Part shown: one piece after another, positions 3,688 through 22,123 of the stretch
Layout: each line of letters starts with the position of its first letter
How positions within the stretch are numbered: the stretch's first letter is position 1
Origin: a virus
Strand: one strand, 5' to 3'
Virus record (IMG/VR): IMGVR_UViG_3300021964_012597
Coordinates: 1 to 22,363 of that record
DNA length: 22,363 nucleotides
Made by a program: the position numbers and the translations under genes
The notes under the pieces: model-generated
Database searches by the model: none
Told to the model about the DNA's origin: nothing
What the model saw: only the letters and a program-made list of their open reading frames with translations

Positions 3688-3703
3688 TACACTTATAATA
3701 CGC
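3688..3703 (-). promoter_or_regulatory. Promoter-like element GCGTATTATA with GTGTA, upstream of the SAP-like gene
   Basis: On the minus strand GCGTATTATA (3703 to 3694) is one base from the GTGTATTATA element found before phoH and the Cys-rich gene. It is followed closely by GTGTA (3692-3688). The start codon is 27-38 nt downstream and has a Shine-Dalgarno, so this unit would have an ordinary short leader. It lies just after the major-capsid terminator, as expected for a new start of transcription. Confidence 0.4.
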
Positions 3704-3712
3704 TATATAAAC

Positions 3713-3744
3713 AAAAAAATCCATCATTTCTGATGGATTTTTTT
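3713..3744. terminator. Bidirectional rho-independent terminator after the major capsid gene
   Basis: Perfect 14-bp inverted repeat: AAAAAAATCCATCA (3713-3726), loop TTTC, then TGATGGATTTTTTT (3731-3744). The GC-containing core CCATCA/TGATGG is flanked by an A run on one side and a T run on the other, so it can act on either strand. It lies 22 bp beyond the stop codon of the minus-strand major capsid gene, fitting its strong and separate expression. Confidence 0.88.
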
Positions 3745-3766
3745 GAAAATAAATGAAGTTCTAAAA

Positions 3767-4855
3767 TTAGACTTCGATACCTAAGAGGCCCCTATCGTCA
3801 ACAACCATGCGACCTTCTTCTACCATTCCGTAGTAGCCGATCTTTTGCTGCCTGACCGAATATTGGTCGTCAGCAACGAGGTTAAATTGACCACCGCTTT
3901 CTGCGTCAACAGCTACGGCACGGAGCATTGCGTCACGATTCCTATCAATTGCGATAACGATATCAGTTTCGCTTCCAGCGAGCCCGCCAGCTGCATTAAA
4001 AATTGTGGTATAAGTGCCGTTAGCGCCAAGCTCATTGATTTCCATGATATTCATGCCATAAAACTGAGGCAGTCCACCAGCATTAAATAATGCTTCGCGT
4101 AAGGAATCTGGCGCAGCTAAAGCTGTAGATTCGTTTGTGTCAGGCACTGCAGTTGTATTAACTGGGTTATAAGACATTGACCTTATGCTTTCTGTAATTT
4201 CAGGAGAAACAATCAGATCGGTAATACCTCTCGTGCGATCAGGGGTGCCACCAGACCAAGAAGAGTTAATCCTCTTCGAGCGGGTCATAAGCCTGTTCAA
4301 GTCATCCAAGGAAAGCGTTCCAGTTGTCGTAGCTCGTATTACGTGCTCGGTATTTGCGCCACTTAAATAACCGACATCAGCCAATGTACCAAGAATTAAG
4401 TTCGCAGAGGTTTTTTCTTGCTTAAGAAGGACTTCTTGAGCGACTCTAGTGAAAGTTTTGCTAATAACATCAAGACGAGATTTAGCAGCGTATTTTCTAT
4501 CGAAATCAACTGCAGTATCTAAACGATAAGTAGCAAATTTCAATTCAGAGTGAGTTGGCATGATTGTATTACTTGGCAAGCCACCAGCTACAGTTTGAGA
4601 CCAAACCTTGATGTAGTCACCATCAGTAATATCATGATACAGATCCAAAGGAATACTTGGATTGTCATCTGCATCAAACTCTACGGTTGTAAATAAGTTA
4701 CTAAGGGTAGGAGCGTTATTTACCACATCAGCCAAAACTGGCCCGATAAATTCAGCTAATGCCATTTGAGCTTCATAAGCTACCTCACGATTCTTGGAGG
4801 CCATAGCTCTCACAAGTTCGAGTTGTTCTTGTGTTCTTTTTAATGTAATTTTCAT
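3767..4855 (-). CDS. Major capsid protein (HK97-fold type)
   Basis: 362 residues. It lacks a recognisable Shine-Dalgarno; its ATG follows an A-rich stretch. The N-terminus is helical (MKITLKRTQEQLELVRAMAS). Later come features common in HK97-fold capsid proteins of this size: RLDTAVDFDRKYAAKSRLDV near the middle, the DLIVSPEITESIRSM segment and the C-terminal IGYYGMVEEGRMVVDDRGLL. It lies downstream of portal, protease-scaffold and decoration genes, the standard order of a head module, and ends at a strong terminator. No separate long N-terminal delta domain is evident, in line with a separately encoded scaffold. Assignment rests on gene order plus sequence texture. I am fairly sure it is the main capsid protein. 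Confidence 0.82.
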   Translation of the reverse strand: MKITLKRTQEQLELVRAMASKNREVAYEAQMALAEFIGPVLADVVNNAPTLSNLFTTVEFDADDNPSIPLDLYHDITDGDYIKVWSQTVAGGLPSNTIMPTHSELKFATYRLDTAVDFDRKYAAKSRLDVISKTFTRVAQEVLLKQEKTSANLILGTLADVGYLSGANTEHVIRATTTGTLSLDDLNRLMTRSKRINSSWSGGTPDRTRGITDLIVSPEITESIRSMSYNPVNTTAVPDTNESTALAAPDSLREALFNAGGLPQFYGMNIMEINELGANGTYTTIFNAAGGLAGSETDIVIAIDRNRDAMLRAVAVDAESGGQFNLVADDQYSVRQQKIGYYGMVEEGRMVVDDRGLLGIEV

Positions 4856-4895
4856 TTTTTTTATTAAATTTTTGAGTGTTAATGTTCTAAATTAA

Positions 4896-5510
4896 TTATG
4901 CGTCTAATTTAATCATGTAGTAATTACCAGCATAACCATCGTCAGATGCACGAGAACCTGTTCCTAAAACAACGCCAATTACGGGGTCATCAGAAGCGCC
5001 ACTAGCTATTGGGCCAATTTTGCCAACATCAGACTTGGAAATTTTAAACTGATCTCCAACGCCTATTGTTCCGTCAACTGCGTCAGCGGTGATTGTGAAA
5101 ACACCTTTTGTTGCGATAGGCACTGCTTCGCCAGAACCAACAGCTTGCATTTCTGCTTTTTTAGTTGGGTTGTAAAGAAGCTTTTCGCCATTTTCGTCAC
5201 GATTAAGTGTTTGATTTAATGTAATACCAACGCATGGGCTACCAGTAGTAGCAGCAGCAACCTTCAAAGGTACTGTTGGTAAATAATTTCTGCCAACTGG
5301 AGAAGCGTGTTGGTAGCCAACTAATGAATTATTGAGATACTCAATTGGGTCAGAATCAAGGTCTCCAACGGAAACCTTAACGAAGACTCCGTTATCATTA
5401 TCTCCATTTGTGTTTGGGTCATCAAGACCAGCGGAGGTAGTAGATAACGCGAATAAATTTATAACGTTTTTTTCGCTATATTGTTTGTATGGTAGTAGTC
5501 TAAGTGCCAT
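4896..5510 (-). CDS. Putative capsid decoration (cement) protein, copy A
   Basis: 204 residues, beta-rich, no membrane segment. The opening MALRLLPYKQYSEKNVINLF recurs in slightly changed form in the gene at 20433-21086. So do the NGDNDNGVFV loop, the VGITLNQTLNRDENGEKLL block and the C-terminal ASDDGYAGNYYMIKLD. The middle part, with EAVPIATKGVFTITA and then VGDQFKIS, resembles the small barrel of DUF2190-type capsid cement proteins. It lies between the protease-scaffold gene (5-nt gap) and the major capsid gene, the classic position for a decoration protein. Decoration is inferred from fold resemblance and position. Confidence 0.6.
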   Translation of the reverse strand: MALRLLPYKQYSEKNVINLFALSTTSAGLDDPNTNGDNDNGVFVKVSVGDLDSDPIEYLNNSLVGYQHASPVGRNYLPTVPLKVAAATTGSPCVGITLNQTLNRDENGEKLLYNPTKKAEMQAVGSGEAVPIATKGVFTITADAVDGTIGVGDQFKISKSDVGKIGPIASGASDDPVIGVVLGTGSRASDDGYAGNYYMIKLDA

Positions 5511-5515
5511 GGTTA

Positions 5516-7123
5516 TTAGTATTTAATTGTTAAATTTTCTCTTTTGAAAGCTTCTTGAAATTTTTCACGGAAAGTTGGCTCTTCTTGAGCGCTCTCAATG
5601 TTATTATTGCTAATTTTTTCTTCAGCTTCTGTTTTTTCGAGGATCTCCTCGATAACATCAACAGATGCGACAGCAACTTTATCTTCTGATAAAGTTTCAG
5701 AATTTTTGTTTTGGATTTCAGAAAGTCTTTTTTGAACCTCTTCTTCGATTTTCTCACTCATTGCAGCTTCTAGTTTTGCGATGTGAGCTTTGTTTTTATG
5801 CTTCCAAACTACAGCGAGTTTTTCTTGATAAGCGTCAAAAGATTCATCTGTAGAATCTAAGCTCTGGATTTCGCTTGCGAGAATTTGAGAGTCTTCATCA
5901 GATAAATCATATTCTTCATTGATCTTATCCATGCGAGCATTATAAAGCTCTTTAGACAATCGCTCAGTATTCGCAGCTTCCAAACCTTCCAGTTGCTCTT
6001 TAGTTGAAGCAAGCTGCTCTTGAAGCTCTTTAACTGTAGACTCTAATTCAGACTGAGCCTGAACCAACTGCTCTTTTTCAGTTTCTGCAGCGGCGAGTTG
6101 CTCTTTGTATTGTTCATTTTTTTCACGAATTGCTTCGCTCACAACGTTTCCTATGCTTGCAACAGCTTCTTGAGGAGAAAAATCATTCTTCTCTACCTCT
6201 TGTGTTAAAAGCGATTCAAGCTTATCGATAAGTTTTTCGGTTTCCATAATTTTTAAATCCTTAATTGGTTTTACAGTGTTTTTGGTTGAATGTGAATTTA
6301 TTTTTTTTACTTTTTGTAAAAAAGTTTCATTATTTATTTCTATTCTTTCAGAAGCTTCTCTTCTTTTTTCTTTGAATTTTATATCTTTTTGATCGACGGA
6401 ATCAGTAATTACACCCTTAACATCAGCAGCTGGATTTGCTGTAAACCCTATACCTAAAGGATATATATTACCAGTAACTAATCTATAAATTTTTGTGCCA
6501 TCATCCATTTGACCTGGACCGTCCATGGATTTTAAATAAACCTTTAATTCATTTATTTGTTTTTTGTCCGTAATTATTTCAGCCTCATTTAAATTATCGC
6601 TACCTAAAGCAAGAACATAATCATTAAATCCTATTTCCCAACTCGCAGATACCGATTGGTAATAATCACTATCTTTATCATTTGACATTTCAACCATATC
6701 TGCAAACGCTGGATTAACTGTTCTATAAATAACAGCCCCTAAAGAAATGTTAAATGGGTCAACCATTCCAGAAACGTCTTCTAAAACCTCGTTTGAACCA
6801 TAACGAGAAAATCCAGCAGAAACGATATGACCAACAACTTTATTTTTAATGTGTTCGATATTAGTTGGTTTGTGAATAAAATACTTATTGACAGCCGCTG
6901 CTGTCGCGGCATCTATACCGTCGTCGTTTTTATTGAATTTATTAACGACTGCCGCATTAAATGCTACCGCCATTAAATCTATATTTTTTTCTAAATCTAT
7001 AGATGATGGTATTAAGGGTTTTAGCGGCTCAAGTGATGCGCGACTAATATTCAAATCACCGCTCTCTATATCAGAAGAGGCAATAATTGATTCTTCGAAT
7101 TTGGCTGTATATTTATAAGACAT
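5516..7123 (-). CDS. Prohead protease fused to scaffolding domain
   Basis: 535 residues. Residues about 40-240 look like a prohead (capsid maturation) serine protease: EHIKNKVVGHIVSAGF carries the likely catalytic His91, followed by an acidic FNISLGAVIYR strand and QSVSASWEIGF with the likely catalytic Ser159 or Ser161. Residues about 290-440 form a long, heptad-like, Glu/Gln/Lys-rich coiled coil, beginning after KDLKIMETEKLIDKLESLL, typical of internal scaffolds. The tail is acidic and ends with a basic amphipathic segment. The protein would cleave scaffold and capsid termini during head maturation. Family members are often separate genes; here protease and scaffold are joined. A possible internal start at 6247 could give free scaffold. 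The gene follows the 154-aa gene by 1 nt. Confidence 0.8.
   Translation of the reverse strand: MSYKYTAKFEESIIASSDIESGDLNISRASLEPLKPLIPSSIDLEKNIDLMAVAFNAAVVNKFNKNDDGIDAATAAAVNKYFIHKPTNIEHIKNKVVGHIVSAGFSRYGSNEVLEDVSGMVDPFNISLGAVIYRTVNPAFADMVEMSNDKDSDYYQSVSASWEIGFNDYVLALGSDNLNEAEIITDKKQINELKVYLKSMDGPGQMDDGTKIYRLVTGNIYPLGIGFTANPAADVKGVITDSVDQKDIKFKEKRREASERIEINNETFLQKVKKINSHSTKNTVKPIKDLKIMETEKLIDKLESLLTQEVEKNDFSPQEAVASIGNVVSEAIREKNEQYKEQLAAAETEKEQLVQAQSELESTVKELQEQLASTKEQLEGLEAANTERLSKELYNARMDKINEEYDLSDEDSQILASEIQSLDSTDESFDAYQEKLAVVWKHKNKAHIAKLEAAMSEKIEEEVQKRLSEIQNKNSETLSEDKVAVASVDVIEEILEKTEAEEKISNNNIESAQEEPTFREKFQEAFKRENLTIKY
6245..6262 (-). promoter_or_regulatory. Possible internal ribosome binding site for a nested scaffold protein
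   Basis: On the minus strand AAGGA (6262-6258) lies 10 nt before an in-frame ATG (6247-6245) that is Met293 of the protease-scaffold fusion. Initiation there would give a 243-aa protein consisting only of the coiled-coil scaffold half. Phage lambda makes Nu3 scaffold from inside gene C in just this way. The spacing is slightly long and the match could be chance. Confidence 0.35.
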
Positions 7124-7124
7124 A

Positions 7125-7589
7125 TTAATACATGCAACCTACGCCTGGAACACATGGTGCATAAGCAGTTTTATACTCTTTATCATATGCTATTGCACAG
7201 GCCATATACGCCCTGTCTTCATCCAAACCTTCTGTATCAACAGAATCTTTTGCGTGAGACATGCAATTTGCGATATACTTTTGATGTTGCTCTTTTTCAG
7301 ATGCAGGGACCTTCATGTAACCAGCTTCACTTTCCTTTTCCTCTTCCATCATCATACCACAATGACTGGCTGTTAATTTTTTCATTAAAGCTTCGTGAGA
7401 CTCCCCAGGCATAAAAACACTATCTTCGCCCATCTTGTGAGTATGTATTTTATCAAAACCCATTTTCTTCGCCATTTTCATAGCCTCACCAGGGTTATCA
7501 AATTGGTACTTCGATATATCCTCGGCGGAAGTAATCTCAATTTCTACAGTTTGGCCCTTTTGAACTAAATTAGTTTTTAAATTTTTCAT
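7125..7589 (-). CDS. Small conserved phage protein of the head module, unknown function
   Basis: 154 residues. It lies between portal and protease and is probably transcribed from the GTGTAT element just upstream. The N-terminal half is a segment with His/Gly: AMKMAKKMGFDKIHTHKMGE, followed by a PGESHEALM block. The end carries several cysteines (Cys133, 148, 154 region, ending PCVPGVGCMY). From memory, similar pieces with a His-Thr-His and PGxSH signature occur in structural regions of aquatic phages, sometimes fused to protease or portal genes. I cannot name a tested function. Metal binding through the His and Cys residues is possible but unproved. Confidence 0.6.
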   Translation of the reverse strand: MKNLKTNLVQKGQTVEIEITSAEDISKYQFDNPGEAMKMAKKMGFDKIHTHKMGEDSVFMPGESHEALMKKLTASHCGMMMEEEKESEAGYMKVPASEKEQHQKYIANCMSHAKDSVDTEGLDEDRAYMACAIAYDKEYKTAYAPCVPGVGCMY

Positions 7590-7599
7590 ATTTTATCAT

Positions 7600-7613
7600 A
7601 AGTAAATACACAT
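7600..7613 (-). promoter_or_regulatory. GTGTAT promoter-like element before the 154-aa gene
   Basis: Minus strand ATGTGTATTTACTT (7613-7600), with GTGTAT starting 22 nt before the ATG at 7589. It sits in a 45-bp gap after the portal stop codon. The gap also holds an A-run/T-run junction (7614-7626) that could bend DNA or act as a weak stop. The element is shared with seven other transcription-unit heads in the window. Confidence 0.5.
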
Positions 7614-7634
7614 AAAAAAAATTTTTTACCAAAA

Positions 7635-9605: not shown

Positions 9606-9620
9606 TGTAATATTGTACAC
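9606..9620 (-). promoter_or_regulatory. GTGTAC promoter-like element immediately before the portal start
   Basis: Minus strand GTGTACAATATTACA directly abuts the portal ATG, with GTGTA starting 15 nt before it. TACAAT is itself a fair -10 hexamer. If used as such, transcription would start at or next to the start codon and give a leaderless message. No Shine-Dalgarno is visible. Confidence 0.5.
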
Positions 9621-9622
9621 TT

Positions 9623-9646
9623 TAAAAGTTAAAAAGTTAACTTTTA
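9623..9646. repeat. AT-rich dyad between terminase and portal
   Basis: Inverted repeat TAAAAGTTAA (9623-9632), loop AAAG, TTAACTTTTA (9637-9646). It lies 13 bp past the terminase stop and just upstream of the portal promoter-like element. The stem has only two GC pairs and no good U tract follows, so it may be a weak terminator or an operator. Confidence 0.5.
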
Positions 9647-9658
9647 GACTTTATTTTT

Positions 9659-12600
9659 TTATGTTATGAACATTGGGACAAAAGTATTTTGAACCTTAAT
9701 CGACTCTACGTTCATCATGTCATAATATGATTTTACCATCCATGCTCCAAGTACAAAAGCCGAATAACTATCTTTCCTGGCTTTATCTGGGCCACCTTGT
9801 CTTTTTAGGGATTGAGGCAAATCAAATGTTTGAGTTCCTTGTGGCGAAACCTTGATATTAATCAAAGCGCATTCTGTCTTCGTGAGATTAATCATATCAT
9901 ATTGATGTTCAATGAAATCAATCATTTTAGCGTCCTTACCCTGATTATTTTCAGAGTCCTTATTTCTTAAAAACTTTAATTTGTCAATCGGTATTCTTTT
10001 TGACCTTTGATCGTGGTAATCTTCATTTACTGCCCTAGAGGCGAACCATATTTTCTTTTTATCAAAACATGCTTGTAAATGTTCGTTAGCCCTACTGATC
10101 CATCCGCTGGTAGGCTTTCGAAGCACACAGATTCTTTTTTCACTAAGATTATATTCGTTCTTTGCGGCCCTTAATACTTTTTGATAATTTTCAGTATCAT
10201 CAAGCTCAACATCAATTGTTTTTATTTCGATTTTAGAGGATTTAAATAATTCACTTTCATTAGCTGCGCTAATAAATTGCACGCCACCATTGTAGTCGCC
10301 GCATATCCCAACAACATTAAAATGAGTCAAAATATAATGAAAATAAAAGATATGATCTTTCATCCTTGCTCCAGATAAAGCGTAACTATGCACAAGAGTG
10401 CCTTGTTTTGCATTATCATTAATTTTAAAAACCTGCATAGCGAAATCGTCACTGCTTTCACTTTCTGCCCAAGACGGGTCAAAAGATAAAATATACTTAC
10501 CATCTGGGTCACCACATACTTGTATTGATTGGCCCTCTCCATCTTCAATCGTACATGCAGCCATTTTTGATGTCTTGAAATACCCAGAGCTATCATCTGT
10601 AAATATCGCGCCAAACTCTCTATCAAATTGACTTTGACTCATTGAGGCTTTTGCTTGGTCAATCAAATTTTTATCATACAATTGTTTTGGCGCACAGTCA
10701 TAACTAAACTGCATAACAACCCGATGCGCCTCCACATTTTTTTCGTGGCCATCTCCAAGTATTAAATTATCAAATTTTTCATAAAGTTTATAAAGGTATT
10801 CGAATTTATAAGACGCAGAAGAAAGCATTATTAATTTATTGTTTGGCCATCTATATCTTTCGCTTTCTTGCATTTTACCTTGAGATATCATCTCTGTTTC
10901 AAGATTATAAATGTCTTCTCGTTCAGTAGGATTTTCTACAACAGACAAGAATGGGACAATAACTTCGTTATAAATTCTTTCTGGCATTAGCAACATCTCA
11001 TCAATAATAATCCTATGAAATCTAAAACCACGAAGTTTTTCGCCATCCCCTAGCGGCAATGCATGTATTTGGCTTTCGCCTATCTCCATAGTCCATTGGT
11101 CATTACTTTTACTTTTTCGGGTAATGCACTGGCCAAGCATTTGAGCCTCTGGCTTATTTGCAATATCTTCGATTTTTTTAAAAATCATTTTGGCCTGACG
11201 AAAAGATTTACTAATTATGCCAGTCTGAACACCTTGATTAAGAATAGCGTCCAAAAAAGCAAAGATACCAGTAGTGAATGATTTGGACATACCGCGAGAA
11301 TTATGATGCACGATTCCATTGCCAATATAATTCTCTTCGTTCTCAACGGTAATATCTACAGAAATTGTTTTGCACTCTCGTATCTCCTTAACCTTAGAGA
11401 ACACGACCCGCTCCTGTTGGATTTCGTCAATTAAATCCCGCGTACTTGAGTCAATACCAACCAAGTCCTTAAATCTATTCTGAGAGAAATTTTCACCCCA
11501 TGATCCGCGTACCCCAGTAATACTCTTGAAAGAGCCTTGCTCCTTAAGCATTTTACCCAATCCTGGAACCAAGCTGTTTTGGTAATTTCTTTTTTTAGAT
11601 CTCTGTATGATTGTATTTAAATTATCTTTTTTATGCCTTACGATAAAATCAACTTCATTTTGGAATTTCAGCAATGAATGGTAATCATTACTGATTACCA
11701 AGTCATAATAAGGCGTCCCATTATGCTCTCCGCTTTTCCTTAAGTTAGATTCAATGCCTATATTATTCAATAACATTTTTACCTGCCTCAACATTTCAAG
11801 CGATGTATTCTTTAACCCAACCTTACTAGAAGATTTTAAGTAGGATGCGTACCCATCCGCATCAAACAAACCGCCTATAAGAGCACATAATTCAACTCCT
11901 GAAGCTTGCAAAAGTTCATCTGGAATAATTTTGTTTTTACTTTTTAGTGATTTATCCCAACCAAAACCTTCCAAAAATGACACTAGCTTTCGGTTAAATA
12001 TGGAATATTCATAAAAATTTAAATTCCCACTCTTTTGTCTAGAGTAAGATTTAAAACTGTTTGTTTTAATAAAATTCAAAATAACATCCTGCACCTCTGA
12101 ATTCTCAGAACAGTAATGTATGCCGTTTTTGTCAACATAGCCATCCCCAAGAACATAACCAAGTAGATAAAACAAATAAGGAGATCTTTTGATGCTTGAC
12201 TCTTTTGTGATATCATTGTCGCCCCACACGTTAGTCCCAAGTTTAATAGGTATATGATCTTCTGTTGTAATATCTTTTATATTTTTAAACTCAAACTTTC
12301 CTTTAGTATCATAAACTAAAGTCTTATGACCGATTTTTGCCTTAAATGAGTCTCCAGACTGGGTTGATATAAATAAACCATCTTCTTCCTTATTAACCCA
12401 TTTGTCTGAAACAAGGTTAAGCTTTTTTCTCGATCTGACCTTTTCACCGATCTTAATGTTTTTGATTTTTTTAAACCCAGACTCGGAAAGAACATATTCG
12501 TTTTGATCCAAACACCAAATCCCCAAGAAGTAATCCGACTCCAACATCGACTTAATTGCCATATGTTGAAAAGGGAACAGTTTTACCCCAGACAATAAAT

Positions 12601-12751
12601 CAACCGCAAAAGTGCTATTACCTCTTAAAAATTTATATAAAAGAAGTTTAGCTTCTCTTTCGTCCAGAAAACCTTCTTTATTCAGAATAAGTTCATTAAT
12701 TTTTGACGAGTAGTTTGCTCTCTGGGCTTGATTACCTGTATCCCAGCTCAT
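9659..12751 (-). CDS. terL: Terminase large subunit interrupted by an intein
   Basis: 1030 residues as translated, 625 after removal of a 405-aa intein. The start at 12751 overlaps the cupin stop (ATGA) and has a strong GGAGG site upstream. The extein shows the packaging motor: P-loop SRGMSKS rebuilt at the splice junction (compare SRQLGKT in T4 gp17), Walker B IIIDEM, then LIMLSSASYK as coupling motif. The C-terminal RNase-H-like nuclease has its three acidic positions in ILSFDPSW, GICGDYNGG and KMIDFIEHQ. It pumps DNA through the portal encoded next and cuts concatemers. The P-loop departs from the classic GK(S/T) by having Ser before Lys. It is the last gene of a six-gene overlapping operon. 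Confidence 0.92.
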   Translation of the reverse strand: MSWDTGNQAQRANYSSKINELILNKEGFLDEREAKLLLYKFLRGNSTFAVDLLSGVKLFPFQHMAIKSMLESDYFLGIWCLDQNEYVLSESGFKKIKNIKIGEKVRSRKKLNLVSDKWVNKEEDGLFISTQSGDSFKAKIGHKTLVYDTKGKFEFKNIKDITTEDHIPIKLGTNVWGDNDITKESSIKRSPYLFYLLGYVLGDGYVDKNGIHYCSENSEVQDVILNFIKTNSFKSYSRQKSGNLNFYEYSIFNRKLVSFLEGFGWDKSLKSKNKIIPDELLQASGVELCALIGGLFDADGYASYLKSSSKVGLKNTSLEMLRQVKMLLNNIGIESNLRKSGEHNGTPYYDLVISNDYHSLLKFQNEVDFIVRHKKDNLNTIIQRSKKRNYQNSLVPGLGKMLKEQGSFKSITGVRGSWGENFSQNRFKDLVGIDSSTRDLIDEIQQERVVFSKVKEIRECKTISVDITVENEENYIGNGIVHHNSRGMSKSFTTGIFAFLDAILNQGVQTGIISKSFRQAKMIFKKIEDIANKPEAQMLGQCITRKSKSNDQWTMEIGESQIHALPLGDGEKLRGFRFHRIIIDEMLLMPERIYNEVIVPFLSVVENPTEREDIYNLETEMISQGKMQESERYRWPNNKLIMLSSASYKFEYLYKLYEKFDNLILGDGHEKNVEAHRVVMQFSYDCAPKQLYDKNLIDQAKASMSQSQFDREFGAIFTDDSSGYFKTSKMAACTIEDGEGQSIQVCGDPDGKYILSFDPSWAESESSDDFAMQVFKINDNAKQGTLVHSYALSGARMKDHIFYFHYILTHFNVVGICGDYNGGVQFISAANESELFKSSKIEIKTIDVELDDTENYQKVLRAAKNEYNLSEKRICVLRKPTSGWISRANEHLQACFDKKKIWFASRAVNEDYHDQRSKRIPIDKLKFLRNKDSENNQGKDAKMIDFIEHQYDMINLTKTECALINIKVSPQGTQTFDLPQSLKRQGGPDKARKDSYSAFVLGAWMVKSYYDMMNVESIKVQNTFVPMFIT
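11300..12514 (-). other. Intein with LAGLIDADG homing endonuclease inside TerL
   Basis: 405 residues, from Cys80 of the terminase (CLDQNEYVLSESGFKKIKNI, block A) to the terminal HHN (NYIGNGIVHHN, blocks F/G). The next extein residue is Ser, so the splicing nucleophiles are Cys1, Asn405 and Ser+1, with the usual penultimate His. Two dodecapeptide motifs, LLGYVLGDGYV and LIGGLFDADGY, mark an apparently intact DOD-type homing endonuclease. Block B has a His in AKIGHKTL, but the usual Thr three positions earlier is Lys. Insertion falls exactly in the ATPase P-loop, a typical conserved target of homing elements. TerL should be inactive until splicing. The splice junction was checked codon by codon. 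Confidence 0.93.
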
Positions 12752-13101
12752 TTTTGTGAACCTCCACAATTCTCCCTCTGTATATCAGATTCACTTAACT
12801 CAACCCAATATATCTCATAAGCAACTGTATCTTCAAGAGCCTCAAACATATGATATTCATTTGGTGGAACTGTAGTCATCTGAAGATCAGTGACCATAGT
12901 CTCATCAACTAAATCGTAATCGTTTTTCCAACAAGTTATTTTTAGCTTGCCCTTTTCAACAAAAAAAGCGTTAAATTTATATTGGTGTTTGTGTTTTGAG
13001 CAGAAGCCGCCTTTTTTAGTTTCGATCCTATGTATTTCTACATTATTTTTGCAAAACAAAGATTGTGTTTCGCCCCAAACTTTTCCTTGAATATTGTTCA
13101 T
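12748..13101 (-). CDS. Small cupin-fold protein
   Basis: 117 residues. The sequence GGFCSKHKHQYKFNAFFVEK has the His-x-His spacing of cupin motif 1, and VPPNEYHMFEALED the Pro-x3-His of motif 2, so a metal-binding single cupin barrel is likely. Opening with KVWGETQSLF and following the same pattern, small cupins of this type occur beside terminase genes in other aquatic phages (from memory). No substrate can be inferred. It starts 2 nt after the ERCC4-nuclease stop, with AAGG before the ATG, and overlaps terL by 4 nt, so it is translated with the packaging genes. Confidence 0.72.
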   Translation of the reverse strand: MNNIQGKVWGETQSLFCKNNVEIHRIETKKGGFCSKHKHQYKFNAFFVEKGKLKITCWKNDYDLVDETMVTDLQMTTVPPNEYHMFEALEDTVAYEIYWVELSESDIQRENCGGSQK

Positions 13102-13103
13102 GT

Positions 13104-14027: not shown

Positions 14028-15076
14028 AAAATATCATCCCTTCCTATCCCTAAAACCCTTGCTTTCCAAGAAGCCATATTCTCCATTCTTTCAGCCTCTT
14101 CATCTACGGTTTTCTTTTGCATTTCTGCTATCAACACCATTCTCTTACGCTCTTCCTCGTCTTGAAATAACCTAACCAAAGATAATATAGAGGCATTATC
14201 TTTTCTCCGCGAATCAATTCTCTTAGCCCTATCACCATTTAATTTTTGAATTAAAGATTCCATTCTTTTTTCGCACTGATTATATTCTTCGCTTTTTGTT
14301 TTTAATAATTCAGCAAGCCTAACAGTCATATCTTGCTGTTCATCAGCTTCATTAAACATTCGATTTAATTTTTCTATATGACCAGAAATGTTTTTCAGAT
14401 TAATATAATCCACACAAACATTAATATATAAATTGATTTCGTCAGCGGTTAAATCTGGCTTGTCCCATGTAGCTCTAATAAATTCGGCTTCAAATAATTC
14501 TCTATCCCCTTCGTTATTATAACTATTGATTGTTTGCAAGAAACGGGGTGAGGACAAAAAGTTTTTTAAGGTTTCAATACATTTTTTTTCATGAACAGGC
14601 AGCTTATTTAATTCAAGAGATTCGTTTGCAAATTTATTTATCCTATTCAAAGATTCCAATAAGTTTCTTGGCGACTCGTATCTTTTCCCCAGCGCTGACT
14701 CTGAATCATGGACCTGTTCTGGAGCGCGTTTTCTGATATATTCTGCAGCTACCAAGGTCTCTTTACTAAGAGGCGTTATTCTTTTATCTGGGAACATTAA
14801 ACAAGCTACTTCGTATGCAGACATGCCATCTTCGGCAGAGTTTAAAATAAATTCTTTTTGCTCCTTACTTAAGGTTATATTCTTAACTTTTTCGCGCTTA
14901 GTCGTTTTAAACTTAAGCCCTTGCTCTATTAAAAACTCTCGTACAGCGCGGCCTTCTTTGCTTCGACCATCTAAAGCATCATTATTATAAACCAGTTTTG
15001 TTAATTTAATTAAATCTGGAGTTTTATCATAATTGTCTACTATAAGTTTTTTTTGTTCTTCTGATAAATTACTCAT
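14024..15076 (-). CDS. Tandem helix-turn-helix protein, candidate small terminase
   Basis: 350 residues, almost all helical. Two similar repeats of about 50 residues open the protein: LSEEQKKLIVDNYDKTPDLI near residues 4-53 and LSKEQKEFILNSAEDGMSAY near 69-116. Each ends in a (R)SKE or LSKE helix, as in HTH DNA-binding units. The rest is a long charged, coiled-coil-like helix (ERKRMVLIAEMQKKTVDEEA) with a short C-terminal tail. The gene overlaps sigma by 8 nt and the nuclease by 4 nt and precedes terL in the same operon. Small terminases join an HTH to an oligomerising helical core and sit upstream of terL, so this is the best candidate here. No direct homology was tested. Confidence 0.55.
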   Translation of the reverse strand: MSNLSEEQKKLIVDNYDKTPDLIKLTKLVYNNDALDGRSKEGRAVREFLIEQGLKFKTTKREKVKNITLSKEQKEFILNSAEDGMSAYEVACLMFPDKRITPLSKETLVAAEYIRKRAPEQVHDSESALGKRYESPRNLLESLNRINKFANESLELNKLPVHEKKCIETLKNFLSSPRFLQTINSYNNEGDRELFEAEFIRATWDKPDLTADEINLYINVCVDYINLKNISGHIEKLNRMFNEADEQQDMTVRLAELLKTKSEEYNQCEKRMESLIQKLNGDRAKRIDSRRKDNASILSLVRLFQDEEERKRMVLIAEMQKKTVDEEAERMENMASWKARVLGIGRDDIL

Positions 15077-15788
15077 GAATAATGACGTCTTTTTTCTGTA
15101 ATATAGAAATTATTTTTTCTTTAAAAGTTTTTTTAAGGTTTTTAATTTGTTTATAACCTGCTTTACGACCCTTTTCATTTGTTCTGTAGCCCATTTTAGC
15201 AGCAACCTCCTCTTCGTTCTTATTTTCAATAAATAGCATTTGATATATTTTGTAGTTTTTGGGAGATAGGCATTTCTTGAGTTCTGCGTGAACCTTCTCT
15301 AATGACAACTCTAAATCAAATTGCTTCTCGTCCTGAATAAAAGAGTCTGCTGAACAGCCTTCAATTGATATTGCCATCTGAATATCATAAGCGCTTTTTT
15401 TAGTTTTTTCCCATTTTGCATATAAGGGGCATTCGTTGCACTGTAAGCCGCTTTGCGTAAAATCACAAAGCTCATCTGAAAAATTTCCTTCTTGGTTATT
15501 ACTAGATTGGGCAAATGGACAATTCAAGCACGGCCTAGAGTAATTAGAATAATTATTTCTTAGTATGTTCTTAATTTGATTACTAATTACTCTATTTAAC
15601 CAAGGTTCTAATGGTCTACTCTGGTCCCATTGACCCCATTTTTTATATATATGAGCCCTTATAATTTGACAAACATCATCGAAGTCTATCCAGCTGACAG
15701 AGTTTAAAAACCATTTCCCCCTGCGCTTTTGTAACTCATGGTCGATTATGTCTTTTTTGTCTTCATATTTAAATTCTTGTTTATCCAT
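15069..15788 (-). CDS. Phage sigma-70-like factor with Cys-rich insert
   Basis: 239 residues. Residues about 20-85 match sigma region 2: KWFLNSVSWIDFDDVCQIIR, then the WDQSRPLEPWLNRVISNQIK core with the usual Asn/Gln helix. Residues about 172-225 look like a region 4 HTH (LSPKNYKIYQMLFIENKNEE, then EVAAKMGYR). Between them is a Cys cluster, Cys87-x2-Cys90, Cys108, Cys117-x2-Cys120, likely a zinc site; ordinary ECF sigmas lack it. It should bind host core RNA polymerase and redirect it, most likely to late phage promoters. It overlaps the zinc-ribbon gene before it by 8 nt. Placement in the packaging operon recalls late sigma factors such as T4 gp55 in role, though the sequence is not obviously gp55. 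Confidence 0.8.
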   Translation of the reverse strand: MDKQEFKYEDKKDIIDHELQKRRGKWFLNSVSWIDFDDVCQIIRAHIYKKWGQWDQSRPLEPWLNRVISNQIKNILRNNYSNYSRPCLNCPFAQSSNNQEGNFSDELCDFTQSGLQCNECPLYAKWEKTKKSAYDIQMAISIEGCSADSFIQDEKQFDLELSLEKVHAELKKCLSPKNYKIYQMLFIENKNEEEVAAKMGYRTNEKGRKAGYKQIKNLKKTFKEKIISILQKKDVIIHE

Positions 15789-16104
15789 TTTCGCGCGGTT
15801 TTTTATCCTTTAAGTCTCTACGCGCAATACCTTGGGGATTTGACCTTTGGTCAAATAATGACTCGAATTTAAAATAAGATCCTTGATTGTGTTCAATTTC
15901 GCAATCTAATCCTTGAATATCAGGGACGTAATCAACATCTGTTTCGTCCTCCATCAACTTAACACTTTTCTTTCGTGTTGAGGTCAAATTTGATCTAGAG
16001 ATACTTTGATTAGATAGCGGCTCACCACAATTACCACAAAACTTTGGCGGCTTTAGTGAGTAAATATTTTTGTGTCCACATTGAGTGCAGTATTCGCTTT
16101 TCAT
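15781..16104 (-). CDS. Small zinc-ribbon protein, possible sigma partner
   Basis: 107 residues. Cys6, Cys9, Cys23 and Cys26 (YCTQCGHK and FCGNCGEP) make a compact zinc ribbon. A basic linker (TSTRKKSVK) follows, then an acidic patch (MEDETDVDYVPDIQGLDCEI). It is the first gene of the packaging operon and its last 8 nt lie within the start of the sigma gene, so the two products are probably made together. The acidic patch and ribbon would suit a polymerase- or sigma-binding accessory protein, but that is only a guess from position. The upstream 33-bp gap has a weak AGTATAAG stretch and no clear GTGTAT element. Confidence 0.6.
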   Translation of the reverse strand: MKSEYCTQCGHKNIYSLKPPKFCGNCGEPLSNQSISRSNLTSTRKKSVKLMEDETDVDYVPDIQGLDCEIEHNQGSYFKFESLFDQRSNPQGIARRDLKDKKPRENG

Positions 16105-16137
16105 ACAAACTTATACTAAACAAGAAAACTTTAAAAT

Positions 16138-16728: not shown

Positions 16729-16732
16729 TATT

Positions 16733-17185: not shown

Positions 17186-17186
17186 T

Positions 17187-17612: not shown

Positions 17613-17616
17613 TTGC

Positions 17617-17640
17617 TTATATATATATAAATATATACAC
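17617..17640 (-). promoter_or_regulatory. GTGTAT promoter-like element before the holin-like gene
   Basis: Minus strand GTGTATATATTTATATATAT (17640-17621), beginning 28 nt before the ATG at 17612. The rest of the gap is an alternating TA run. It starts the unit that runs through the three membrane genes. No Shine-Dalgarno is visible. Confidence 0.45.
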
Positions 17641-17659
17641 TGCAAATTTTAAATATAAC

Positions 17660-17986
17660 TTATTCTGCTAAAAAATCGTAACCAAAATGCATATAATTAC
17701 CGTCTGTCGAACTTGTGTCACCAGACGGACATTCAAGATTCCATACGATAGTATTGTTATCTGTTTCGTGCATTAGAAGGCCAGCTGATTGATTTTCCAT
17801 AACAATATTGTCTGGATTGGTAATAACATGCGACTCAACTTGGATTGGTTGGCCTTCAAAAATTAATAAAATCACATTGCCACTGGTTTGTATTTGGGGC
17901 TGCAGCTCTGACGAAAAGGAATAGTCGGAGCGATCTGACTTAATGTAACCCTTAAAGGTTGAATTTATTGTGCTTCTATAATCCAT
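17660..17986 (-). CDS. Hypothetical protein, possibly virion-associated
   Basis: 108 residues, beta-rich and Ser/Thr/Asn-rich, with one pair of strands around VILLIFEGQPIQVESHVITN and a C-terminal YMHFGYDFLAE. It has no membrane segment, signal peptide or catalytic motif. It starts 4 nt after the stop of the Cys-rich gene, with AGGA before the ATG, so the two are co-translated and may act together. I do not recognise the family. A minor virion or adsorption protein is possible from texture only. Confidence 0.55.
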   Translation of the reverse strand: MDYRSTINSTFKGYIKSDRSDYSFSSELQPQIQTSGNVILLIFEGQPIQVESHVITNPDNIVMENQSAGLLMHETDNNTIVWNLECPSGDTSSTDGNYMHFGYDFLAE

Positions 17987-17989
17987 AAT

Positions 17990-18556
17990 TTATCCTACTA
18001 TCGCGTTTAAACAAGAAGCGCTCGTGCCTCCAACAACACAAAATATCAAACATCCAGTATTTAAACCAAAAAATAGACATTTATTTGTGGCGCAAACCGT
18101 ACCATCGTTTGCTATGGTTCGATAGGTGCACAAAACATTATATTCTGTATTTGCGTTAACAACATGAGCGCAAGATTGGCCACTTACCTTAACTATTGTG
18201 GTACTCAATAAACCGTTCGTCACACATGCTCCGCAATAACCCCCATTAAAACTCAAACACCAACTAGAATCAGGGTGACCTATATCGTCTTGTTTTAGGT
18301 AATATGCTATGCAAGAATTAGAAATTTGATCTGCATACCAATCAGATCCACTACTTTGAACCTGTGCGTAACTATTTCCAGCGCAGCTACCTACGGTTGG
18401 ACTATAACCCTTTAAACACGCATAAAGGTAACCGCCCTCAAAAACTTCAAATTGGTTTGACACCCCATTAAGGCCAAATGAATTTTGTGTGGGATGGATA
18501 TGATTATATAAACTTATATCCGATGTATTTACAGGTCTTTGGGTGCAGTTACTCAT
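17990..18556 (-). CDS. Cysteine-rich protein of unknown function
   Basis: 188 residues with 14 cysteines, spread through the protein and densest in the last third (CATNKCLFFGLNTGCLIFC). It is rich in Gly, Ser, Asn and Tyr and beta-like, with no signal peptide or clear membrane anchor; the last 40 residues are hydrophobic. Cysteines do not follow a zinc-finger spacing, so disulfides or several metal sites are more likely. It begins its own unit, with a GTGTATTATATA element ending 5 bp before the ATG, and is coupled to the 108-aa gene. A disulfide-knit virion surface or adsorption protein would fit. That is inference; the family is not recognised. Confidence 0.6.
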   Translation of the reverse strand: MSNCTQRPVNTSDISLYNHIHPTQNSFGLNGVSNQFEVFEGGYLYACLKGYSPTVGSCAGNSYAQVQSSGSDWYADQISNSCIAYYLKQDDIGHPDSSWCLSFNGGYCGACVTNGLLSTTIVKVSGQSCAHVVNANTEYNVLCTYRTIANDGTVCATNKCLFFGLNTGCLIFCVVGGTSASCLNAIVG

Positions 18557-18573
18557 TACAATATATAATACAC
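18557..18573 (-). promoter_or_regulatory. GTGTATTATATA promoter-like element before the Cys-rich gene
   Basis: Minus strand GTGTATTATATATTGTA runs straight into the ATG at 18556. The first 12 bases are identical to those before phoH. GTGTAT starts 17 nt from the start codon, leaving no room for a Shine-Dalgarno if transcription starts 6-7 nt after a TATTAT -10. Confidence 0.55.
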
Positions 18574-18582
18574 ATAAAAAAA

Positions 18583-19308
18583 CTAATTCTCAGTTTTTAA
18601 CTTTTTAATAATAAATTTTAATAATTGACTACGAACAATATCTCTTTCTGAAAACTCAAAGCATTGTATGCCTCTCTGCGAAGACTCTTCGTCATTGAAT
18701 ATATCATACATTTGTTTGAAGCCACTTTTGCCATTAATATCGCTTTGCATCGGATCTCCGCAAATAAATACCTTAGTATCTTCGCCAGCACGGGTAATTA
18801 AAGTCGTGAGCTCTTTAAATGTAAAATTTTGAGCCTCATCAGCTATAACTATTTTATTTATCCAGTTTGCTCCGCGAATATAATTTATTGGCATCGCTTG
18901 TATTCTTAGTTTTTCTATTAATTCGTTTTTTAAAGAAAACGATATCATTTCTTCTAATTTATCTGCCAGCGGAGCCATATAAGGGTTAAATTTTTCATTT
19001 ACATCTCCAGGTAAAGCGCCAAGACCTTTTTCAGCGCTTTCAATAACAGTCCTGACGTATAGTAAATCAAGGTTATCATTTTGCTCCATTAATGTAAGCG
19101 CGGTATACACAGACAAATATGTCTTACTACTACCAGCGGGCCCACTAATAAAAACAATCTTATTGTTTGTATCTAGGGCTTGTGAAATTAACTCTCTTTG
19201 TTTTTGCGAAAAATTAAACTTTTTTGATGAAAATTTAATTGGTCTTGGTTTAGTCAATGGGGTTAATGCGTCTTTTAATTCTTGAGTTTTTTTTCTTGCC
19301 ATAAGCAT
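18583..19308 (-). CDS. phoH: PhoH-like P-loop ATPase
   Basis: 241 residues from the ATG at 19308; a second ATG two codons on (19302) is equally possible, and a GTG at 19323 is inside the promoter-like element. Walker A GPAGSSKT (residues 56-63) and Walker B IVIADEAQN (Asp157, Glu158) are intact. RTVIESAEKGLGALPGDVNE, the classic PhoH block, and FICGDPMQSD follow in the expected order. The N-terminal 30 residues are basic and the size is normal for phage PhoH. The family is widespread in marine phages. It is an ATPase, possibly linked to RNA or phosphate-stress functions; the role in phages is not settled. It begins a separate unit sharing a divergent control region with the small plus-strand gene. 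Confidence 0.92.
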   Translation of the reverse strand: MLMARKKTQELKDALTPLTKPRPIKFSSKKFNFSQKQRELISQALDTNNKIVFISGPAGSSKTYLSVYTALTLMEQNDNLDLLYVRTVIESAEKGLGALPGDVNEKFNPYMAPLADKLEEMISFSLKNELIEKLRIQAMPINYIRGANWINKIVIADEAQNFTFKELTTLITRAGEDTKVFICGDPMQSDINGKSGFKQMYDIFNDEESSQRGIQCFEFSERDIVRSQLLKFIIKKLKTEN

Positions 19309-19323
19309 TACTATATAATACAC
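19309..19323 (-). promoter_or_regulatory. GTGTATTATATA promoter-like element before phoH
   Basis: Minus strand GTGTATTATATAGTA directly precedes the ATG at 19308. It is the mirror partner of the plus-strand GTGTA element at 19332, 8 bp away. Confidence 0.55.
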
Positions 19324-19331
19324 ACATTTAA

Positions 19332-19346
19332 GTGTAAATTATATAT
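19332..19346 (+). promoter_or_regulatory. GTGTA promoter-like element before the mini-protein gene
   Basis: Plus strand GTGTAAATTATATAT ends right at the GTG start at 19347, 15 nt from motif to start codon, as for phoH and portal. It is the only clear plus-strand copy next to a gene start, apart from a GTGTA at 939-943 in the hairpin before paralogue 2. Confidence 0.45.
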
Positions 19347-19532
19347 GTGACTAAAAAAGATATCTTAGATAAACTTGCATTAAACCTTGATACGTACCAA
19401 GCGACATCCTGGCTTGGGAAAAAGAATAAAAACCTTAATGATAAAACTCCAGCAGAACTTATTTTTGATGACAAGCTTGAAGATGTTATTAAAGCGCTAG
19501 ATTTAGAAATAAAAAAGACAAAAAGAAAATAA
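19347..19532 (+). CDS. 61-aa protein resembling the MbcA/ParS/Xre antitoxin toxin-binding domain
   Basis: 61 residues from a GTG start that fits the promoter spacing. The region SWLGKKNKNLNDKTPAELIF resembles the WL-x-NxxL-xxxTPxEL signature of the DUF2384-type (MbcA/ParS/Xre) toxin-binding domain, reduced to one domain with a short basic tail. In toxin-antitoxin pairs that domain grips a RES-type toxin. No toxin is encoded next to it, so it may be an orphan antitoxin or an unrelated small binding protein. It is divergent from phoH and has the opposite strand to nearly all neighbours. Similarity is by motif memory only. Confidence 0.5.
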   Translation: MTKKDILDKLALNLDTYQATSWLGKKNKNLNDKTPAELIFDDKLEDVIKALDLEIKKTKRK

Positions 19533-19541
19533 CAGAGCTAT

Positions 19542-19850
19542 TTAAGATAAAAAAGAACGCAATCTTGAGCATATAAAATTTAAATTATCATAGTCTATTC
19601 TATCAACATTAATAGATCCACCTTTTTCCCTAATAGAAACGCCAGTCTCTGATCCAACCGAAACAAGATCTTCAATAAAATCCCAGGAATACCTGTTTTT
19701 CAACCACCTCCAGTACATATCTTGAAGCTCTGGGTCGCATTCTACCAAAACATCTTGCTTTAAGAAACAGGAACTAAAAAGCGTAACATCCCTAAAACAA
19801 TGAATAGAACTTGGTGGTTCCGACAAAGTGCAACTTATAATTACTGACAT
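19542..19850 (-). CDS. Hypothetical 102-aa protein
   Basis: 102 residues from the ATG at 19850. Longer upstream reading would cross the divergent HNH gene and is rejected. The protein has an N-terminal beta-like stretch with several Cys (HCFRDVTLFSSCFLKQDVLV), a Trp-rich middle (DMYWRWLKNRYSWDFIEDLV) and a C-terminal acidic part. No motif or membrane segment is recognised. A GTGTAT element touches its start codon on the minus strand. It lies back to back with the HNH gene (14-bp gap) and tail to tail with the 61-aa gene. Probably real because of the promoter-like element, but function is unknown. Confidence 0.5.
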   Translation of the reverse strand: MSVIISCTLSEPPSSIHCFRDVTLFSSCFLKQDVLVECDPELQDMYWRWLKNRYSWDFIEDLVSVGSETGVSIREKGGSINVDRIDYDNLNFICSRLRSFLS

Positions 19851-19864
19851 ATAAATACATACAC
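19851..19864 (-). promoter_or_regulatory. GTGTAT promoter-like element for the 102-aa gene, overlapping the HNH upstream site
   Basis: Minus strand GTGTATGTATTTAT fills the whole 14-bp gap and touches the ATG at 19850. On the plus strand the same bases contain TATAAATA (19850-19857), identical to the T4 late promoter core, 7 bp before the HNH start codon. Which strand uses the site is not clear. Confidence 0.4.
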
Positions 19865-20443
19865 ATGAATCCAAACTACATATGTAATCCCTCTGATAAA
19901 GTGGTTTTAATATTAAGTCAGTTCTGGACACCAATTAATATCACAACAGCCAAAGAAGGAATATTAAAATTATCATCCAGTTCACATGTAAAAGCTATTT
20001 CAAATGGCGGACAACCAATGAAATGGGAAGAATGGGTTGAATGTAATTATCTTTACGAAAATCAACCGTTTTTAAGAAGTGTTAATTTCTTGTTTCCTGT
20101 TCCGACCATTTTATTGACGTCAACAAAATGGTCTTACAGGTGTCACGAAGAGCCAAACATAGAATATTTATACAAAAGATTTAAAGGCGCTTGTCAAATA
20201 TGTGGTGATAAATTCCCGATCAGTAAAATGTCTATTGAGCATATTTACCCTAAAAGCAAAGGCGGAAATAATAATTGGTACAACCTTACAATATCTTGCA
20301 AGCGATGCAATTCACAAAAAGGTAATATCTACCCTTATGCTAATCACGAAGGGCAAACGCTAAAGGCGTCAGCGCCTTTGCCCTATTTTCACACCTTTTC
20401 GAAAAGGAGAAAAGAGTGGAACCCTTTTCTGTTTAAAACTTAA
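19865..20443 (+). CDS. HNH endonuclease
   Basis: 192 residues. The N-terminal part (DKVVLILSQFWTPINITTAK) matches the beta-strand lead-in common to stand-alone phage HNH proteins. The nuclease core is Cys110-x2-Cys113 (CQICGDK), ISKMSIEHIYPK with His126 as the likely general base, an Asn-rich loop (GGNNNWYNLT) and Cys145-x2-Cys148 (CKRCNSQKGN), a zinc-supported HNH fold. It nicks or cuts DNA; in phages such genes are often free-standing homing elements, though some assist packaging. It runs against the surrounding genes and its 3' end overlaps the decoration-paralogue gene by 11 nt, which suggests insertion into the region. Confidence 0.85.
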   Translation: MNPNYICNPSDKVVLILSQFWTPINITTAKEGILKLSSSSHVKAISNGGQPMKWEEWVECNYLYENQPFLRSVNFLFPVPTILLTSTKWSYRCHEEPNIEYLYKRFKGACQICGDKFPISKMSIEHIYPKSKGGNNNWYNLTISCKRCNSQKGNIYPYANHEGQTLKASAPLPYFHTFSKRRKEWNPFLFKT

Positions 20444-21086
20444 ACGCCATGCCAGTGTCGAGCTTAATAATGTAATACTTGCCTGGGAACGCATCGTCAC
20501 TTTCACGTTCTCCTTTGGCTAATACTACGGCGATAGGTTTGCGATCACCTAGAAGAAAGACTGGCACATCATTAAACCCTATAAATTTTCCCGTGGAATT
20601 AAGGTCCCAAGTCAAGTAATCGCCAACATCTACTTCTGCATCAAATGCTGACGCAGTTAATGTGAAGATTCCAGCCGTTGCAATAGGAACCTCTTTATAT
20701 GGCAAAACTGCACCTAATTCAGTGAGCTTTGTGTCGCGCCCTAAAAGAGGTTCCCCGTTTTCGTCATACTTTAATGTTTGCCTCAAGGTAATACCGATAG
20801 GCCTATTATTGGCTACATAAGGAGCCTGGACATACGAATTATAGAAAAACCCAACTCTTCCAATAGGCGAAGAGTGAACTTTAGGCGACCATCCACTAGC
20901 CGAACTGCCACTAGCCCAATATAAATTACGTTGAATCGATGGGTAAACCAAAACACCGTCATCATTATCCCCATTTAAAAATGGGTTTTCAATGCCGTTT
21001 TCGCCAGATGAACCGTAGCCCATAGTAAATTCGTTTATGACGTCTTTCTCGTCGTATTGTCTAAAAGGTAGTAATCTTTTTGCCAT
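20433..21086 (-). CDS. Putative capsid decoration protein, copy B
   Basis: 217 residues, a clear paralogue of the protein at 4896-5510. It shares the MAKRLLPFRQYDEKDVINEF opening, the NGDNDDGVLV loop, PIGITLRQTLKYDENGEPLL, and the ending SDDAFPGKYYIIKLD. It is longer by an insert after the N-terminus (NLYWASGSSASGWS) and by a short C-terminal tail. EVPIATAGIFTLTASAFDAE again resembles a DUF2190-like cement barrel. No Shine-Dalgarno is visible; the ATG follows an A-rich leader and a GTGTAT element. It lies well away from copy A and may be an alternative or vertex-specific decoration protein. The paralogy is strong, the function inferred. Confidence 0.6.
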   Translation of the reverse strand: MAKRLLPFRQYDEKDVINEFTMGYGSSGENGIENPFLNGDNDDGVLVYPSIQRNLYWASGSSASGWSPKVHSSPIGRVGFFYNSYVQAPYVANNRPIGITLRQTLKYDENGEPLLGRDTKLTELGAVLPYKEVPIATAGIFTLTASAFDAEVDVGDYLTWDLNSTGKFIGFNDVPVFLLGDRKPIAVVLAKGERESDDAFPGKYYIIKLDTGMAFKF

Positions 21087-21108
21087 TTTTTTTCTTTTTT
21101 TAAATTGT

Positions 21109-21123
21109 TATTTATTAATACAC
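21109..21123 (-). promoter_or_regulatory. GTGTATTAATAAATA promoter-like element before decoration copy B
   Basis: Minus strand GTGTATTAATAAATA (21123-21109) lies 37 nt before the ATG at 21086, the longest leader of the set. It falls in the 54-bp gap after the 321-aa gene. Confidence 0.45.
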
Positions 21124-21140
21124 CAATAATTTTCTTTTTT

Positions 21141-22106
21141 TTAAAAATTTTCATCATCAATGAAGTCGTATTCTTCATCATGTTCAATGCCAAATCTTTG
21201 ACAATCGAGTTTTGCTAAAATTAACTCCTCTATTGTGAAATAGATCGCAAATTGCTCTTCTGTTCTTAATAAAGATGCATTCATTACATCCTGGTCTGCG
21301 GCCTTGTATGATTTTTTAACCTTTCCGCCCCGCACCATTTTCAGAAACATATTGACTCTCGCCATCGCCCATTGGCCACGGGTTTTCCCAGGCCTATGGC
21401 TAGAAGAAAATGCGCCAGCGCCACGACGATATATTTTTTTTAATTGAGAAAGGGTTACTTTTTTAGAATATTTTTTATTATGTTCTGCGACTTTTCGCTT
21501 TAACCCTTCAATCACTCTTTGGCTAAATTCTATATTAACACCTTTTTTGCCAGCAGATCCAGGTTTGTTCTTTTTAGAACCCTTTTTTCTTTCTGATTTT
21601 TTTGACGGCGTTTGTGCTGAAGATTTTGGCCCAGGTCGTTTCGCCGCTTCAGTCTTCTGCTTACATGGACAATCTTCGTTACAAGAGCAATCTTCTTCTT
21701 TATCATCATCATCTTCGACAATTTCTGCTGAAGCTAATGAAGGATTAAGCCCTAATAAATAATCTTGCTCCTCGAAAGTTTCTCCGTCCCATTCTTCTTC
21801 GCTGCCCTTAAGATAATCTGAAACTGATTTTTTAGATTCCCACATCTTGCAAGACCAATAACGAGCTTTTGTTTTGGGCCCAGGATTACTACAATTATGT
21901 CTTGCGCGGAAATTTTTCCTGCGATCTGGATCGTCACGCTTGATTTCCATCTTCGGGTCACCAAAACGCACTAATACTACGTTACCTTTTTCGTTTTTAA
22001 CATAAACTCCAAATTTTTTAGTATTCCCTTTCGGTAAGCGGAAAGGTTTGTTTAAAGTTTTGTTTTCGTTTTTGCCTGATATGTTTTTGGAAAAATCAAG
22101 TTCCAT
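21141..22106 (-). CDS. Multidomain phage protein with conserved aquatic-virus domains, function unknown
   Basis: 321 residues in three parts. Residues about 19-90 form a block (KPFRLPKGNTKKFGVYVKNE, then RFGDPKMEIKRDDP, and HNC with a later YWSCKMW) that I recall as a common domain in marine phage structural proteins. Residues 131-185 change from Asp/Glu-rich to a CSCNEDCPC cluster to a Lys/Pro/Ser-rich basic linker. Residues 190-275 form a second recurring block (KKIYRRGAGAFSSSHRPGKT, then GQWAMARVNMFLKMV). The C-terminus is acidic. A GTGTAT element begins 17 nt upstream of its start. It lies at the head of the block with decoration copy B, so a structural or assembly role is plausible, but no biochemical function is known to me. 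Confidence 0.62.
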   Translation of the reverse strand: MELDFSKNISGKNENKTLNKPFRLPKGNTKKFGVYVKNEKGNVVLVRFGDPKMEIKRDDPDRRKNFRARHNCSNPGPKTKARYWSCKMWESKKSVSDYLKGSEEEWDGETFEEQDYLLGLNPSLASAEIVEDDDDKEEDCSCNEDCPCKQKTEAAKRPGPKSSAQTPSKKSERKKGSKKNKPGSAGKKGVNIEFSQRVIEGLKRKVAEHNKKYSKKVTLSQLKKIYRRGAGAFSSSHRPGKTRGQWAMARVNMFLKMVRGGKVKKSYKAADQDVMNASLLRTEEQFAIYFTIEELILAKLDCQRFGIEHDEEYDFIDDENF

Positions 22107-22123
22107 GATAATAGTTTATACAC
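22107..22123 (-). promoter_or_regulatory. GTGTAT promoter-like element before the 321-aa gene
   Basis: Minus strand GTGTATAAACTATTATC (22123-22107) directly precedes the ATG at 22106, again with no room for a Shine-Dalgarno. Confidence 0.5.

Follow-up and report, generated by a model that had tools for sequence, protein, structure and literature searches.

The window analysed here, a virus record of 22.4 kb, carries the short word GTGTA ahead of many of its genes, which raises the question of whether the word is a promoter element, which factor would read it and where transcription would begin. An earlier note on this DNA had reported GTGTAT or a close variant before nine minus-strand genes, and had counted 13 words, nine before genes and four in coding sequence. 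Exact search gave the same counts, with 13 minus-strand copies of GTGTA alongside 2 on the plus strand; nine of the 13 precede the genes starting at 22106, 21086, 19850, 19308, 18556, 17612, 9605, 7589 and 3665, the other four being inside coding sequence at 6410, 14015, 16812 and 19106, although the earlier coordinates were off by up to 5 nt and the copy before gene 9605 reads GTGTAC and not GTGTAT. Simple over-representation across the window was considered and rejected, as the total of 15 copies is below chance (24.7 expected) and GTGTAT occurs 9 times against 7.8 expected. The non-random property of GTGTA in the window is its placement and not its total count: for 11/15 copies, a gene on the same strand begins within the next 40 nt (binomial p ~2e-15, calculated post hoc after the pattern had been noticed, and with one of the 11, at 939, overlapping an apparent hairpin). 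This hairpin, read from the sequence as ACCACAAAC-TTCG-GTTTGTGGT at ~917-943 on the plus strand, is the reason why the copy at 939 was left out of our promoter list.

Measured from the first G to the start codon, five of the nine minus-strand elements lie at 14-17 nt (17, 14, 15, 17 and 15 nt), exactly as had been claimed. The GTGTAT at 22118-22123 stands 17 nt before gene 22106, and GTGTA was found at 14-21 nt in 3/3 distinct orthologue upstreams, while that at 21118-21123, 37 nt before gene 21086, is not conserved in relatives, with GTGTA in 1/24 distinct upstreams, namely that of the window's own phage. The product of gene 21086 (20433-21086, minus strand) and that encoded at 4896-5510 on the same strand have similar N-termini (MAKRLLPFRQYDEKDVINEFT and MALRLLPYKQYSEKNVINLFA, respectively) and overlapping tblastn hits, and are apparently paralogues. 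Gene 19850, predicted to be leaderless, has GTGTAT at 19859-19864, 14 nt from its start, with 6/10 distinct upstreams carrying GTGTA at 14-21 nt; a gene for an HNH endonuclease lies on the plus strand at 19865-20443 amid the minus-strand genes. Two further elements stand back to back, GTGTAT(TATA) at 19318-19323 on the minus strand, 15 nt before the PhoH gene 19308 (also predicted leaderless; GTGTA in 12/14 distinct upstreams, irrespective of distance), and GTGTA at 19332-19336 on the plus strand, 15 nt before the divergent gene 19347 (6/7 distinct upstreams), which bears out the earlier statement that this gene shows the same pattern. The remaining minus-strand elements are GTGTAT(TATA) at 18568-18573, 17 nt before gene 18556; GTGTAT at 17635-17640, 28 nt before gene 17612, the first of a gene run that includes a sigma factor and the terminase; GTGTA(C) at 9616-9620, 15 nt before the putative portal gene 9605; GTGTAT at 7606-7611, 22 nt before gene 7589; and GTGTA at 3688-3692, 27 nt before gene 3665, with an intervening AGGA and with GTGTA within 60 nt in 4/4 distinct orthologue upstreams.

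All relatives were fetched by similarity to the sigma or portal protein, and start codons were predicted throughout by a simple purpose-written gene caller. The window's own phage is also represented by a longer record (G001, 43.6 kb), which matches the window at 99.99% identity over 17.3 kb, and the sigma protein has 153 relatives by protein search and at least 575 by alignment search, the longest records of the clade being ~200 kb. These phages form an abundant, uncultivated and apparently marine group. Three MAG contigs carry a relative, in bins assigned to Halobacteriovorax, an uncultured bacterium and Flavobacteriales; naming a host from the Halobacteriovorax or Flavobacteriales bins was rejected, as binning is too unreliable. 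Motif discovery used 13 relatives including G001, and a hold-out set of 129 loci with 1345 distinct upstreams was not used to find the motif; the hold-out loci belong to the same clade, and generality was thus tested within it.

Expectation maximisation (EM) on 469 upstream regions from the 13 records, all gaps of at least 25 nt, returned TTTnGTGTATtATAa in 23% and CTTGACA in 22%, so the motif search among relatives suggested in the earlier note does recover GTGTA. Three of four seeds (GTGTA, TATAAT and AGGAG) converged on TTTnGTGTATtATAa, in which the core is followed by an A/T-rich, G-poor tail. The sense density of GTGTA upstream of genes was 5-51x that in coding sequence across the 13 records, with Fisher p ≤2.1e-5 in 10/13 and weak or no significance in the other three (G005, p 0.014; G017, 0.0055; G010, 0.22). 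In the hold-out upstreams GTGTA was the top 5-mer of the -20 to -6 zone, with 243 sense copies and 5 antisense; these loci, together with a second portal fetch that likewise was not used to find the motif, support its placement independently. No 5-mer of the 1024 fell further below expectation in coding sequence than TACAC and GTGTA (observed/expected 0.55 and 0.63, respectively, in six pooled records). This avoidance varies by record and is weak in G007, and such depletion would be expected if selection acts against stray promoters.

The distance to the start codon is one-sided. Among 964 genes the first G was most often 14 nt (33 genes) or 15 nt (33) away, then 16 (13) or 17 (12), with one copy nearer, and in the hold-out set 14 nt (91) and 15 nt (51) again dominated with three nearer, giving a sharp lower cut-off at 14 nt and a long tail farther out. 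The second upstream class of the relatives, the host-type CTTGACA-17-TAnnnT, has distances of the same shape, with TTGACA at 35 nt (30) or 36 nt (13), a cut-off near 34 nt, an aligned TAnnnT at +23 to +28, and position +35, the usual start site, coinciding with the start codon. With either spacing transcription would begin at the AUG, which should leave most first genes without a leader, and from this layout we predict a 5' end at the AUG for the majority of unit-leading genes; this is the main consequence of the spacing and was absent from the earlier note. Of the genes whose element lies at 14-21 nt, 1/247 had a Shine-Dalgarno sequence, compared with 23/75 of those with it at 22-45 nt (Fisher 3e-15), a contrast weaker than the p-value suggests because at 14-21 nt the element itself occupies that space. 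The genes thus combine a -10-type signal ~12 nt upstream with a mostly missing Shine-Dalgarno sequence, the absence being partly forced by space, and leaderless genes have been inferred by the same spacing logic before (PMC3160421).

The two classes rarely coincide, as the individual elements are carried by 156 and 134 of the 964 genes and both occur together in 7 genes only. They are also spatially separated in three ~200 kb records (p 0.005, 0.019 and 0.0002). Annotation of a sample of long proteins placed RIIA, a DnaB-like helicase, a DNA methylase, UvdE and the small subunit of ribonucleotide reductase behind TTGACA, and a tail fibre and tail proteins, but also the large subunit of ribonucleotide reductase and a Clp-like ATPase, behind GTGTA. 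"Early" and "late" are therefore used by analogy. Judged by its genes, the GTGTA class is not exclusively late: the reductase large subunit and the Clp-like ATPase are not classically late, and "middle/late" is a safer term than the "late" of the earlier note.

Conservation before orthologous genes was seen at the putative portal gene, assigned by distant matches to annotated portal proteins and by its position after the terminase; the search among named phages gave distant matches only, including Microcystis phage MaeS, where an examination of 50 kb revealed no GTGTA pattern. GTGTA lay at 14-21 nt in 30/30 distinct portal upstreams, and the second portal fetch, which has some contigs in common with the first, had GTGTA within 28 nt in 66/66, with 36 at 14 nt, and a single TACAC. 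Elsewhere in the clade, GTGTA was found at 14-21 nt in 25/40 upstreams of the GAF-domain gene of the sigma run and in 21/32 for g7123, while genes inside the sigma-terminase run are nearly devoid of it (sigma 1/52, g15076 0/59, g14027 1/57 and TerL 0/50). An intein with a LAGLIDADG domain splits the large terminase of the window (9659-12754, minus strand).

An array of ACTTT/AAAGT boxes (approximately 9621-9655, minus strand) immediately precedes the portal promoter. At least four boxes were present at this site in 65/66 relatives, and AAAGTYRACTTT in 37/66, with ACTTT starts clustering at -35/-34, -28/-27, -17/-16 and -6/-5 from GTGTA. Arrays of at least five boxes occurred once per record in 6/7 records and in 0/5 shuffles of one genome. 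The array may be the operator of a regulator or a packaging site. Outside the portal promoter, the search for a -35 element yielded no more than weak signals, a G at -18 and TTG at -20.

The earlier note also placed a phage sigma factor in the same window, and a Sigma70_r2 protein is indeed encoded at 15069-15788 on the minus strand (Pfam E 1.8e-6), which makes this ECF-like sigma the candidate reader of GTGTA. Region 2, the only region found by Pfam, is followed by a cysteine-rich linker, in which C87, C90, C108 and C120 are invariant in an alignment of 65, and a C-terminal helical domain. An AlphaFold2 model (mean pLDDT 74, pTM 0.37) had ECF sigma factors as its best Foldseek matches, at E 0.014 or worse. 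The adjoining gene (15781-16104, minus strand) encodes a zinc-ribbon-like protein that falls below the Pfam cut-off and has relatives in 47 searched loci. A Sigma70_r2 protein orthologous to that of the window was present in 8/8 records searched, encoded in a conserved run with the terminase, and it is from this universal presence and synteny that we infer the pairing of GTGTA with the sigma. No RNA polymerase beta domain was detectable in the 8/8 records, although the same search was positive in 14/14 controls; a search for a T7-like RNA polymerase gave no match, but the controls gave none either. No relatives of the sigma were found among named phages in the phage collection searched.

Taken together, the -10-type element of a window-encoded phage sigma proposed in the earlier note agrees with what was computed for the clade: a strand-specific motif at a preferred position at unit starts, conserved before orthologues, avoided inside genes and separated from a second class. 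The element and sigma of the clade would form a phage sigma-directed late promoter system, in which the sigma directs RNA polymerase to the element; a sigma-70 family protein and a recurrent phage-specific element before structural genes are both present. We put a probability of roughly 0.78 on the reading that GTGTA is the -10 element of a phage-sigma promoter for middle/late genes, alongside host-type early promoters and mostly leaderless first genes. Most likely, host core RNA polymerase together with the phage ECF-like sigma would read GTGTA, TTTnGTGTATtATAa, and drive structural and other middle/late genes across this large clade, with early genes transcribed from ordinary host-type promoters (CTTGACA, 17 bp, TAnnnT). 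Transcription would begin at or within a few nt of the start codon, leaving most unit-first genes leaderless; genes with a more distant start site would more often have a Shine-Dalgarno sequence. A fuller code, in which the cysteine-linker sigma reads GTGTA, both classes are mainly leaderless and the portal ACTTT array is the phase-locked operator of a master late switch, is put forward tentatively, as somewhat less than an even bet.

The word could instead be a -10 or extended -10 variant for the host housekeeping sigma, with the phage sigma uninvolved, given that its TA sits where a -10 TA belongs and that TTG is slightly raised at the expected -35 position (15/243). The core, however, has GTG directly before TA and not the TGn plus TATAAT of an extended -10 promoter of host sigma-70, its tail is weakly constrained whereas host-type sites have T at 0.77, and a distinct, spatially separate host-type class already exists with little overlap, which together make this unlikely. 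That the promoter is correctly identified but read by another phage factor, either an additional Sigma70_r2 protein or an undetected regulator, seems less probable still: G003, G004, G006 and G007 encode two or three Sigma70_r2 proteins each, of which the extra ones possibly serve another expression class, but only the window-type sigma occurs in all eight records and within the conserved terminase run.

GTGTA might also act in the mRNA as a translation-initiation signal, having a preferred distance to the start codon, taking the place of the Shine-Dalgarno sequence and occurring also in intergenic gaps of <25 nt. Its one-sided distances, with a limit and a tail, are unlike a spacing optimum and match the shape of the TTGACA class, and distant copies are more often accompanied by a Shine-Dalgarno sequence. 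Furthermore, genes inside the sigma-terminase run lack the word, and coding DNA avoids it in both orientations, so we regard a role in translation as highly improbable and the phage-sigma promoter as the better account.

Among known systems the precedent closest in sequence is not T4 gp55, as the earlier note had it, but phiEco32 gp36, whose middle/late promoters read tAATGTAtA (PMC8948821, PMC4331800). Only TGTAt is common to this consensus and TTTnGTGTATtATAa, and our system differs in its GTGTA core, predicted leaderless layout and phage group, and in a sigma without detectable similarity to gp36 (hhalign probability 0.1). T4 remains a precedent in its logic, since its gp55 late promoters (TATAAATA) are likewise phage-specific with a single -10-type word, but the word differs, our motif search giving GTGTA and CTTGACA and not TATAAATA. 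The T4 and phiEco32 stretches each had 2 upstream GTGTA and no 14-15 nt peak, and T4 showed its own TATAAATA at distances of 22-36 nt, far enough from the start codon to allow a leader, compared with mostly 14-15 nt for GTGTA. Phage 7-11 also uses a phage sigma, gp47, for late genes, but with a bipartite consensus of unrelated sequence (GTAAtg-16-aCTA; PMC8948821). Leaderless bacterial and archaeal genes have a TA-like signal ~12 bp upstream, of Pribnow type in bacteria (PMC3160421); likewise the TA of GTGTA is found ~10-12 nt before the start and a Shine-Dalgarno sequence is mostly missing, the differences here being a phage-specific core and a second, host-type class of the same layout. Within the literature collection searched, no paper paired GTGTA with "late promoter".

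If confirmed, GTGTA would be a means of reading gene regulation in uncultured phages. It would supply a working map of regulation in an abundant phage group that has no isolate with this sigma in the phage collection searched, allow genes to be assigned to transcription classes by sequence, and permit start-codon calls to be corrected. A further question would then be what a phage gains by making most of its unit-leading genes leaderless.
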